Assembly (NCBI GenBank): GCA_024404245.1
Contig: JAKSQH010000004.1
Span: forward strand, 1 to 57,747
From: Clostridia bacterium
Lineage (GTDB): Bacteria > Bacillota > Clostridia > Christensenellales > Aristaeellaceae
Reading direction: 5' to 3'
DNA length: 57,747 nt
Shown here: piece after piece, positions 34,939-38,784 of the stretch
How the letters are laid out: every line of letters starts with the position of its first letter
How positions within the stretch are numbered: position 1 is the first letter of the stretch
Notes under the pieces: model-generated
Told to the model about the DNA's origin: nothing
What the model saw: the letters and a program-made list of their open reading frames with translations, nothing else
Database searches by the model: none
Translations under genes and position numbers: made by a program

Positions 34939-36801
34939 ATGAAATTCATGCAGAAACTGGGCAAGTCGCTTATGCTGCCGGTATCGGTGCTGCCGGTATG
35001 CGGCATTCTGCTGGGTATCGGATATCTGTTATGTCCCGGTGCCGTTCAGGGCGGAGATATCTCAGGTGTCGCGCAGACAATCGGATTCTGGATGAGCAAA
35101 GCCGGGCTTGCCATTATCGGTAATATGGCGATCCTCTTCGTGATCGGTGTTTCCATGGGTATGGCGGAGGAGCAGAACGGCATCGCGTGTCTGTCGGGAC
35201 TGGTGAGCTGGCTGGTGATGACAAGCCTGCTGTCCGCCGATACGGTTGCCGTTATGCTGCCCGAACTGAGCCCGGAATGGATCATGGCTTTTGAAAAGAT
35301 CGCCAATCCGTTCACCGGGATTCTCGCGGGATTGACCGGCGCCTTCGCGTATAACCGTTTCCGCGGGGTGAAACTGCCGGATATGCTGGCTTTCTTCAGC
35401 GGAAAACGTTTTGTGGCGATCGCGACGACGCTGATCAGCACCGTTGTATCCGCGGTTATGCTTCTCGTGTGGCCGCTGCTGTTTATGGGCATGTCCGCCC
35501 TGGGAAAGGCAATCATGGGTCTGGGCGGCATCGGCGCGGGGCTGTACGCGTTCCTGAACCGGCTGCTGATTCCGACAGGGCTGCATCACGCGCTGAATAA
35601 TGTGTTCTGGTTCGATACCATCGGCATGGGGGACCTGACGCTGTTCTGGGCCGGGAAAACCACGGCGGATGTATCCTGGAGCCTCGGTATGTATATGTCC
35701 GGATTCTTCCCGTGTATGATGTTCGGTGTGCCGGGCGCGGCTCTGGCAATGATCCGTACGGCCAAAAACAGAAAGAAAAGCATGGGTATTCTCGGATCTT
35801 CCTCGGTTTGCAGTCTGCTTTGCGGATTGACGGAGCCGTTTGAGTTTTCCTTTATGTTCGCGTCATTCCCGCTGTATGTGATTTACAGTCTGCTGTACGG
35901 CGTTTTTACCTCAATCGCGTATTACACGGGCTTCCGCGCGGGGTTCTCCTTCAGCGCGGGCGGGATTGATCTGCTGCTTTCATCTTCACTGCCGGCCGCA
36001 CAGAACACCTGGCAGATTCTTCCGCTGGGCGCGGCTGCTTTTGTAACCTTTTACCTTGTGTTCCGTCTGGTGATTACCCGTTTTGATCTGAAAACCCCGG
36101 GCAGGGACGATGACACGGAGAATGTTTCGCCTGTTCCCGCGGCTGCCGGCGGAAGCGGAACGGACAGATTTGCCGTTATGGCACGGGCGTTCCTCCACGC
36201 TGTCGGCGGAAAGGATAATGTGGTCAGCGCTGATTGCTGCGCGACCAGGCTGCGCCTGACGCTGAAGGATTCCGGTCTTGTGAATGACGCGGAAGCGCGC
36301 GCCGCGGGAGCGGCCGGCGTGATAAAGCCTGACAGGTCAACCTGTCAGATCATTGTCGGGATGACCGTACAGCAGGTGCTGGACGCCTTCCGTACCGCAA
36401 TGGCGGAAGACCGGCCGGCACCGGCAACGGACGTATCCGAACCTGCCGCGTGTCAGGCTGAAAAACCGGTTACGGAACTGAAAATGACCGCCGCCTCCGG
36501 TGAACATGTGACTGCAGGACAGCTGCTGATACTGCCTGACGGACGCGGGCCCTTTACGCACATCATCCGCGATCCCGTCGGTATTCACGCCAGACCGGCC
36601 GGGGAAATGGTAAGCCTGCTCAGAAACTTCAGCTGCAGGGTGACCGTACGGTGCGGAAACAGAACAGCTGACGGAAACAGCATTCTGGAATGGATGCGTC
36701 TGGGTGCGGGCAAAGGGGCGGAACTCCATGTATCCGCTGAAGGCGCGGACGCGGGAATCGCACTGATGAAGCTGAAACAGTACATGGATGAGAAACTGTG
36801 A
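34939..36801 (+). CDS. PTS EIIC-EIIB-HPr fusion, NagE-like
   Basis: A 620-residue membrane protein in three parts. EIIC (about 1-385) resembles NagE: GLHHALNNVFWFDT, FSFSAGGID and FDLKTPGRD. EIIB (about 405-490) has phosphoacceptor Cys434 in CATRLRL. A C-terminal HPr domain (about 535-620) has His550 in VGIHARPAG. GGGAGGAG lies 12 bases before the ATG. The product should take up N-acetylglucosamine (or glucose) while phosphorylating it. HPr fused to EIIB is not a layout I know from the well-studied nag systems. It is followed in 12 bp by EI-EIIA. Confidence 0.88.
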   Translation: MKFMQKLGKSLMLPVSVLPVCGILLGIGYLLCPGAVQGGDISGVAQTIGFWMSKAGLAIIGNMAILFVIGVSMGMAEEQNGIACLSGLVSWLVMTSLLSADTVAVMLPELSPEWIMAFEKIANPFTGILAGLTGAFAYNRFRGVKLPDMLAFFSGKRFVAIATTLISTVVSAVMLLVWPLLFMGMSALGKAIMGLGGIGAGLYAFLNRLLIPTGLHHALNNVFWFDTIGMGDLTLFWAGKTTADVSWSLGMYMSGFFPCMMFGVPGAALAMIRTAKNRKKSMGILGSSSVCSLLCGLTEPFEFSFMFASFPLYVIYSLLYGVFTSIAYYTGFRAGFSFSAGGIDLLLSSSLPAAQNTWQILPLGAAAFVTFYLVFRLVITRFDLKTPGRDDDTENVSPVPAAAGGSGTDRFAVMARAFLHAVGGKDNVVSADCCATRLRLTLKDSGLVNDAEARAAGAAGVIKPDRSTCQIIVGMTVQQVLDAFRTAMAEDRPAPATDVSEPAACQAEKPVTELKMTAASGEHVTAGQLLILPDGRGPFTHIIRDPVGIHARPAGEMVSLLRNFSCRVTVRCGNRTADGNSILEWMRLGAGKGAELHVSAEGADAGIALMKLKQYMDEKL

Positions 36802-36813
36802 GGATGAACGGAT

Positions 36814-38784
36814 ATGAAAAGACTGCAGGGAAAAAGGATCAACGCCGGCATTGCCACCGGCAAAATCCTGCTTATGAAGAGCCGCCCGGCTGTGCTGAAA
36901 CAGGAAATACCGGATCCGGAGCAGGAAGTTGCCCGGCTGCTTGACGCGCTGACACGGGCGGAGGAACAACTGCAAACGGAAATGAAAACGGCGGACAAAA
37001 CAGCAGCCGGCATTCTTGAAACGCATATGATGCTTCTGACGGATACGCGTTTCCGGGATACAGTGACCGGTATCATCCGCCGCGAGCATGTGAATGCCGA
37101 ATATGCCGCTGACAGGGCGGGAGAAACGCTCGCGGAAGAATTTGAAGCCATGGAGGACCCGTATCTGCGGGCACGTTCGGAGGATATGCGTCAGACAGCG
37201 CGGCGCGCGGCGGACTGCCTGACAGGCTTTACGGAAGTGCCGCGTATGGCGGAACCGGTGATTCTGTGCGCTGAGGAATTCACGCCCGCGCTTCTGAGCG
37301 GGATGAACAGGGAGTATGTGCTCGGGCTCGCGGCAAAGACCGGTTCCCCCGTATCCCATACGGCAATTCTTGCCGCCGGATACGGACTGCCTTATCTGGC
37401 CGGGATCGATCCTGCGGAAATCAATGACGGTGTAACGGCTGTGCTGGATGCCGATCACGGGGAACTGATTCTTGAACCGGATCCGGAGACCGAACAGAAG
37501 GCGAAGGAAAAGGAAAAAGCCTTGCGCGAAATGACGCGGATCGCGCCGGAAAAGACGCGGATGAAAGTTTATGCCAATATCGCCTCGGAAAAGGATCTGG
37601 AAACGGTGCTCAGGCATCAGGCGGACGGCATCGGGCTGTTCCGGACGGAATTCCTGTTTATGAACCGGAATGAAGCACCTGATGAAGAAGAACAGTTTCA
37701 GGTTTACCGCCGCGTTCTGGAGGCGATGGAAGGCAGGGAAACGATTATACGCACCATTGACGCCGGAACGGATAAACCGGTACCGTATCTGGATATGCCG
37801 CGGGAGGAGAATCCGGCACTCGGCCTTCGCGGTGCCAGAGTCAGCCTGGCCTACCCGGATCTTTTCCGCGTGCAGCTGCGCGCGCTGCTCAGGGCGGCCT
37901 GTTACGGCAATGAAGGTATTATGTTCCCTATGATTACCTCCGGACGGGAAATTATGAGGTTGCGTGAACAGGTGAATATCGCGGCCGGCGAACTGGACGC
38001 GCGGAAAGAAAAATACCGTATTCCGCGTATCGGTATCATGGTGGAGACACCGGCCGCGGCGCTGATCAGTGAGGAACTGGCGAAACAGGCGGATTTCTTT
38101 TCTGTCGGTACCAATGATCTGACACAGTATACGCTCGCGCTGGACCGCCTGGCGCGGGGAATGGACGATTACTATGATCCGCACCATGACGCGGTTCTGA
38201 AGCTGATTCGCATGACGGTTGAAGGCGGGCATAAGGCCGGGATTCCGGTGGGCATCTGCGGGCAGCTCGGTGCCGATCCGGAACTGATACCGCTGTTTGT
38301 CGGTGAAGGACTGGATGAAGTATCCGTAGCTCCGGCATCCGTGCCCGCGGTCCGTTACCGCGTGGCTGAAGCGGAGAAACAGCACGAAAACCGTACGGAT
38401 GACAAGCCGGGAGACGGTGGAATCCACGCGCCCGCGGACGGACAGCTTGTTTCCATGAGCGGGATTCCGGATCCTGTATTCGCGGGCGGTGTACTGGGAC
38501 CGTGCTTCGGTATCATTCCGGATAACGGTCTGGTTCGCGCGCCGGCTTCCGGAACGGTCAGCAGCGTTGCCGATACGGGACACGCCGTCAGCCTGCGCAC
38601 ATCAGACGGAAAAGAGATTCTGATTCATACCGGTATTGATACCGTGAAAATGAAAGGCAGGGGCTTCAGCCCGAAAGTTAAGCAGGGTGACACGGTCCGG
38701 ACCGGAGACACGCTTCTGGAGTTTGATCCGGAAGCTGTGCGTGAGGCCGGACTGAACCCTATGGTGATCACTGTTCTGATGTAA
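36814..38784 (+). CDS. PTS Enzyme I fused to an EIIA-glucose-type domain
   Basis: A 656-residue protein. Residues about 1-535 form Enzyme I: active His182 in [10 protein letters not shown], the PEP-binding barrel, and Cys482 in GICGQLGAD. Residues about 545-656 are EIIA of the glucose family: [14 protein letters not shown], His590 in GHAVSLR and phospho-His605 in [10 protein letters not shown], spaced 15 apart as in EIIA-Glc (His75 and His90). AGGATGA precedes the ATG. With the gene upstream it can in principle pass phosphate from PEP to the sugar using no other soluble PTS protein. Confidence 0.88.

Follow-up and report, generated by a model that had tools for sequence, protein, structure and literature searches.

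A predicted two-gene phosphotransferase system with HPr fused to Enzyme II and EIIA fused to Enzyme I in a Clostridia bacterium

This locus raises the question of how a sugar phosphotransferase system (PTS) dependent on phosphoenolpyruvate (PEP) is built when its phosphate carriers are divided crosswise between two proteins. It lies at 34939..38784 of the window analysed here, a stretch of 57,747 bp from a Clostridia bacterium (contig JAKSQH010000004.1, GenBank assembly GCA_024404245.1), and consists of two adjacent genes on the forward strand, one for a membrane-bound Enzyme II (EII) that ends in HPr and the other for an Enzyme I (EI) that ends in EIIA. Judging from domain and genome content, we think it probable that the pair makes up a complete, private PEP-dependent sugar PTS of two proteins, most likely for N-acetylglucosamine (GlcNAc).

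The gene pair and its described counterparts

Gene 1 (34939..36801, 620 aa) has the domain order EIIC-EIIB-HPr and gene 2 (36814..38784, 656 aa) the order EI-EIIA, with an EIIA of the glucose type; both are open frames, spaced 12 bases apart. The start of gene 1, from which His550 is numbered, was placed at the ATG at 34939, with a likely ribosome-binding site, GGAGGAG, ahead of it (34920..34926). Gene 1 could also begin at an in-frame TTG (34852), which overlaps the end of the preceding gene by 4 bases, but this is less likely.

All seven Pfam domains of the two genes exceeded their gathering cut-offs (given in brackets after the bit scores). In gene 1 these are PTS_EIIC (PF02378, 34960..35901; 208.9 bits (30.7)), PTS_EIIB (core PF00367, 36187..36285; 53.1 bits (27)) and PTS-HPr (PF00381, 36559..36786; 69.6 bits (23)). 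Between the last two lies a linker (36469..36558) with a short motif common to the nag-type and MurP-like relatives described below. Gene 2 contains the EI N-terminal domain PEP-utilisers_N (PF05524, 36826..37176; 93.2 bits (24.4)), the phosphohistidine domain PEP-utilizers (PF00391, 37252..37461; 48.9 bits (23.1)), the PEP-binding domain PEP-utilizers_C with Cys482 (PF02896, 37507..38376; 342.3 bits (22.8)) and PTS_EIIA_1 with His590 and His605 (PF00358, 38422..38778; 134.4 bits (27.2)). The Pfam scan gave no HPr match in gene 2. In NCBIfam, the tail of gene 1 passed the HPr family model TIGR01003 (65.5 bits, cut-off 47.9), and gene 2 passed both the Enzyme I model TIGR01417 (459.4 bits, cut-off 341.7) and the glucose-type IIA model (116.2 bits, cut-off 97.5).

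The initial annotation, made from the sequence alone, had named EIIB Cys434 (36238-36240), HPr His550 (36586-36588), EI His182 (37357-37359) and EIIA His605 (38626-38628) as the phosphorylated residues, and had placed HPr at the end of the membrane protein and EIIA at the end of the EI protein. Residue comparison confirmed the four residues, the coordinates given for the locus proved right, and both terminal domains were found above cut-off by hidden Markov models. The PTS set of EI, HPr, EIIA, EIIB and EIIC, with its phosphorylation sites, is thus complete across the two genes.

Statements on described systems refer here to excerpts of the cited articles. NagF and NagE of Ralstonia eutropha are said to work independently of the general EI and HPr (PMC3222305). 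As in our pair, two genes hold EI, HPr, EIIA, EIIB and EIIC, and the EII is of the nag type; there, however, EI, HPr and EIIA form one protein, written EI-HPr-EIIA in that article, and NagE is EIIBC alone, whereas in the present case the EII carries HPr and the EI carries EIIA, and Pfam placed EI, HPr and EIIA together on neither protein. The domain content and order given in the initial annotation, and its contrast with NagF/NagE, therefore hold. A nag PTS of two genes that works independently is therefore known (PMC3222305), and independence is not the novelty of the pair. FruB (EIIA-HPr-EI) and FruA (EIIBC) of Azospirillum brasilense likewise form a self-contained PTS of two polyproteins, but belong to the fructose family and have all soluble carriers on one protein (PMC11837500). 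The EIIs NagP (EIICB) and MurP (EIIBC) of Bacillus subtilis lack an EIIA of their own and are of the same two kinds as those found here; unlike the pair, they depend on the shared EI and HPr and on the EIIAs of other transporters (PMC6148471).

Gene 2 resembles the multiphosphoryl transfer proteins, in which EI is fused to EIIA, at the C-terminus in one group (PMC2405797). The IIA in that group is of the fructose type and, to judge from where the group falls in the article's own HPr tree, its members also have an HPr domain, whereas the IIA of gene 2 is of the glucose type (PF00358) and HPr is lacking. Comas et al. 2008 arrange the EI/HPr fusions in three groups, none of which, in the excerpts, has a glucose-type IIA behind an EI without HPr; the same excerpts make no mention of an EII-HPr fusion (PMC2405797). 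Searches of open-licence papers gave no description of this division either, and we therefore take it to be a new arrangement within a known type of system. What differs is the placing of EI and EIIA on one protein and of HPr and EIIB on the other; the parts themselves are ordinary.

Distribution and ancestry of the division

Gene 2 was searched against 45 genomes of the genus and gene 1 against 61 relatives, and the domains of the loci obtained were read by BLAST (labels with G denote genomes, those with L fetched loci). An EII-HPr gene together with an EI-EIIA gene was present in 9 of the 45 genomes. In seven (the window's own genome, G006, G007, G010, G011, G013 and G065) the EII is a nag-type EIICB, and in two (G003 and G028) an EIIBC resembling MurP and sucrose transporters. 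Eight other genomes of the genus (G004, G012, G016, G017, G023, G030, G066 and G068) have separate, adjacent genes for HPr and EI, preceded in four (G004, G012, G016 and G030) by a whole EIIBCA. Like a row of neighbouring genes on a Priestia megaterium plasmid, these four rows have the same C/B, HPr, EI order as the pair, and differ from it in being unfused and in having EIIA on the EII. The position of EIIA is all that separates the order C-B-HPr-EI-A from the common EII(A), HPr, EI rows, which suggests a single relocation: EIIA would have left the EII terminus for that of the EI, and HPr would have been fused into the gap.

When genome contigs were scanned for the EI/EIIA junction, five of the best 80 loci had EI-EIIA. 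Three of them belong to G011, G065 and G028, and the others come from two metagenome-assembled genomes (MAGs), L122 and L123. These two are labelled Lachnospiraceae and Blautia (a 5.2 kb contig), respectively; both are submitter labels, and mis-binning is possible. Sheep rumen and yak jejunum are named in the record titles of two of the five loci. The search of genomes for the same two-gene layout, proposed with the initial annotation, thus gave 11 assemblies including the window's own, seven with a nag-type EIICB and four with a MurP-like EIIBC. Wherever upstream DNA was present, the EI-EIIA gene was preceded by an EII-HPr gene. The EI proteins of the other members are 42-47% identical to that of the window. 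The two genes overlap in the six other nag-type loci, the stop codon TGA of gene 1 and the start codon ATG of gene 2 together reading TGATG; ahead of that ATG, within the last HPr codons, lies AAGGAG or GGAGGAG.

A metagenome-type assembly of 86 contigs might have joined unrelated genes by error. The same division in 11 assemblies shows that neither chance nor mis-assembly of the window's contig produced it, and with ten assemblies besides our own an artefact can be regarded as refuted.

In wider samples the division is rare among the matches listed. In a sample of 248 genomes of the order, the 27 EI-type loci retrieved besides our own (L083-L109) had no EIIA in the EI frame. Of 398 genomes sampled from the phylum, 149 matched EI at 1e-70; among the matches listed only our own reached EIIA, and five of the longest other EI frames, which were inspected, had none. 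A profile of the fused HPr with its linker matched 158 of the 398 genomes at 1e-9, and among the matches listed only our own lay in a frame of more than 500 aa (the next were 418, 300 and 256). One scan of viral contigs with gene 1 gave no match, and phage records gave only weak HPr matches (11 records). Among the plasmid matches listed (15 of 1099 records and 8 of 594) there was no EI-EIIA or EII-HPr; the joins seen were mostly separate genes, or proteins in another order. Other EI fusions came to light in these samples. HPr-EI proteins without EIIA occur in another family of bacteria within the phylum, in L114 (G447, 677 aa) and L113 (G297, 697 aa). In L095 (G216, same order), EI is continuous with a GntR-type DNA-binding domain (PF00392, 49.3 bits) in a frame of 866 aa (511-3108, minus strand), the related EIs of L096 and L097 being 543 and 545 aa long.

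The phosphorylation sites are invariant among the members compared (EIIB, EI and EIIA 10/10 each, HPr 11/11), a comparison that omits G065 for EI and EIIA and G011 for EIIB, where the genes are broken over contigs. The EI catalytic residues, labelled after what we take to be their counterparts in Escherichia coli EI, are kept in all members compared. At the regulatory serine position, 10 of the 11 fused HPr domains have Ser and that of G006 has Gly.

Phylogenetic trees were built from non-redundant loci (the duplicates L087, L088 and L117-L121 were excluded). In the EI tree (56 rows), the 10 EI-EIIA proteins grouped into a single clade, with support of 100/99 and recovery in 100% of the 200 bootstraps. 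This tree omits L109, which has a very long branch, and the EI of G065, which is split over two contigs and too partial; with L109 included, the fused EIs needed two changes instead of one and lay on one side in 24% of the bootstraps instead of 100%. In the HPr tree (59 rows, 82 columns), the 11 EII-fused HPr domains formed one clade (95/94; 97% of bootstraps); L112, L114 and L116 were omitted, and with them two changes were needed, the HPr-EI protein of L114 being mislabelled as EII-fused. The EI-EIIA proteins thus share ancestry, and so do the EII-fused HPr domains.

The nag-type members, in contrast, were rejected as one clade by the approximately unbiased (AU) test on EI (p = 8.3e-6) and on EIIC (p = 0.014; seven EIICs, with L192 and L077 omitted). 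Among these EIICs the outlier is that of the window; a clade of the remaining six was not rejected (p = 0.23). Nag EIICs with an HPr tail and those with an EIIA tail are interspersed in the genus (L059 with L069 and L071, 98/88 and 99/81). The simplest reading is that recombination has linked one HPr/EI-EIIA module with different EIIs. How closely the history of the module can be followed is limited by long branches, those of the window's EI, HPr and EIIC and those of L062 and L122. The EIIA tree (103 rows, 123 columns, a quick analysis) was poorly resolved: a group with SH-aLRT support of 91 contained the 11 fused EIIAs, three nag-type EIIAs from the genus and one from L124, but the fused EIIAs needed three changes, so that this tree neither shows nor excludes a single origin of the fused EIIA.

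We also considered whether the EIIB-HPr linker is a remnant of EIIA, as its motif (V, then G-D/Q, then I/L) resembles the end of EIIA. The linker of the window was beaten by only 3 of 300 shuffles against an EIIA profile; most of the other 10 were unremarkable, the profile-profile probability for the 11 linkers was 4.6%, and the idea was not supported.

The pair could also be a decaying or non-functional relic, which would fit its sporadic presence (36 of the 45 genus genomes lack it) and the long branches in the window. With both frames open and every phosphorylation site kept, this is very unlikely. A weightier alternative is that the pair is an ordinary permutation of a NagF/NagE-like PTS, the placement of the carriers having no mechanistic meaning. 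Nag systems of two genes that are complete in themselves have been published (PMC3222305), the EII, HPr, EI order occurs in other genomes, and the parts are shuffled freely, as in the unfused all-in-one nag rows of L104 (G273) and L160 (a Lachnospiraceae MAG), which have the order EIIA, EI, HPr, EIIC(-B). This may well be so, at somewhat less than an even chance; the division has been kept in 11 loci with two EII families and with EIs as far apart from the window's as given above, and the fused parts each fall in one clade, all of which speaks against it. The row of L160 is preceded by an antiterminator with PRD and CAT_RBD domains.

Proposed relay and other PTS components

In the private PTS that we favour, with transfers in the order of established systems (EI, HPr, EIIA, EIIB), PEP would phosphorylate EI at His182 (gene 2). 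The phosphate would pass to HPr His550 at the tail of the membrane protein (gene 1), from there to EIIA His605 at the tail of the EI protein (gene 2), then to EIIB Cys434 (gene 1) and finally to the sugar brought in by EIIC. Since the carriers alternate between genes 2, 1, 2 and 1, a feature on which the initial annotation made no comment, all three soluble transfers would run between different gene products, and only the step from EIIB to the sugar within one. The fusions would then not tether a donor to the next acceptor, unlike what is possible in NagF or FruB, and would oblige both proteins to act as one membrane complex. EI and EIIC are dimeric in known members, which would permit a 2:2 assembly. 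The division would make each product useless alone, and close coupling of the two is likely.

The initial annotation had also supposed that such a pair would not need a general EI or HPr. No EI other than the fused one was found in the nine genomes of the genus that carry the pair, the further EI matches being partial, in the PEP-binding domain, and belonging to pyruvate phosphate dikinase frames or fragments. An HPr family search of the nine detected no second HPr with the active-site His. Eight of them do contain a short, free HPr-family protein; in all eight, which were inspected, the phosphosite region reads LSLVENVN-FVNIV, without His, while DAKSILGI keeps the regulatory serine position and a His in RHVVDAKS lies away from the phosphosite. 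Without the phosphosite His, this protein cannot replace HPr in the relay. It was seen at L080:5148-5378 (own genome) and L232-L240; members of the genus that lack a PTS have it too, as inspected in G002 and G022. The own genome and G028 have an identical 76-residue copy, yet different EII families.

Each of the nine genomes has one EIIC of the PF02378 type, a type present in 18 of the 45 genus genomes. Genome content thus supports the predicted independence of the pair. Two points weigh against it: the window's assembly is 65% complete, and the EII count covers the PF02378 type, so that EIIs of the mannose, galactitol, ascorbate or glucitol kinds, supplied by this EI and HPr, may be present. 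Completeness of the nine ranges from 63 to 91%, with six below 88%. The same gaps would leave room for EI-EIIA and the fused HPr to serve other transporters or regulators as well, and glucose-family EIIAs of B. subtilis do phosphorylate transporters lacking EIIA (PMC6148471). Such sharing is improbable, given the single PF02378 EIIC in all nine and the association of several other EIIs of the genus with separate HPr and EI (two each in G004, G016 and G023).

HPr kinase was found in 34 of the 45 genus genomes, in 3/9 with the fused pair vs 31/36 others (Fisher p = 0.003) and, among genomes less than 90% complete, in 2/8 vs 19/24 (p = 0.01). The comparison was post hoc, and mean completeness is lower among the genomes that carry the fused pair (78 vs 83%); the deficit may reflect completeness or real loss. 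Even so, an HPr-kinase branch should not be taken for granted in these species.

Tentatively, as something that could be so rather than something to expect, we propose a wider picture: HPr and EI-EIIA would form a transferable phosphodonor module, of single origin and joined to two EII families, with alternating carriers in an obligate, insulated complex, gained or lost as a unit by bacteria otherwise without PTS, the free HPr-like protein having been disabled by loss of its His. If this is true, consecutive PTS carriers need be neither free nor tethered in order, but can be locked on opposite partners. The pair would be a minimal, insulated two-gene importer of sugars driven by PEP, a compact part for cells without PTS, and a test case for why PTS domains fuse (tethering, stoichiometry or insulation). 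Because one genus includes members with no PTS, with separate EI and HPr, and with the fused pair, the question is testable.

Substrate and surroundings

The best EII model for gene 1 was the GlcNAc IIBC model TIGR01998, and the glucose model GlcB scored 340 bits. In other loci, TIGR01998 gave 528.0-544.1 bits for three further HPr-fused members, 544.2 for an EIICBA of the genus and 562.4 for L160. The MurP-like members scored 264-281 bits to the MurNAc IIBC model and 232-244 to the sucrose IIBC model, both far below cut-off. A gene for GlcNAc-6-phosphate deacetylase (nagA, 15922..17034, forward strand), above cut-off, lies in the window at about 18 kb from the pair and possibly provides its downstream enzyme; nagA was above cut-off in all nine genomes with the fused pair. 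Several observations weaken the GlcNAc assignment. The score of gene 1 to TIGR01998 was below cut-off (496.9 bits, cut-off 553.2), the pair has no nag or other sugar gene next to it in the window, and nagB was not detected in the own genome; in the 45 genus genomes, nagB was above cut-off in none and below it in 34. GlcNAc is thus less certain than the initial annotation implies, yet it remains the most likely substrate. In the window, nagA immediately follows a member of the PF03458 (Gly_transporter) family (15218-17034 for both).

Inspection by eye of the loci compared showed no conserved neighbour; Pfam and NCBIfam assignment covered the neighbours in the window. Promoter- and terminator-like sites showed no excess over shuffles, and Rfam gave no match in the window. 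A chloramphenicol-acetyltransferase-family gene (34142-34855) ends 83 bases ahead of gene 1. Further upstream, on the minus strand (29149-31053), lies a gene for a Ser/Thr protein kinase with a long repeat of the Thr-Glu-Thr-Pro type, encoded by 13.8 copies of a 12-base unit (29767-29931).

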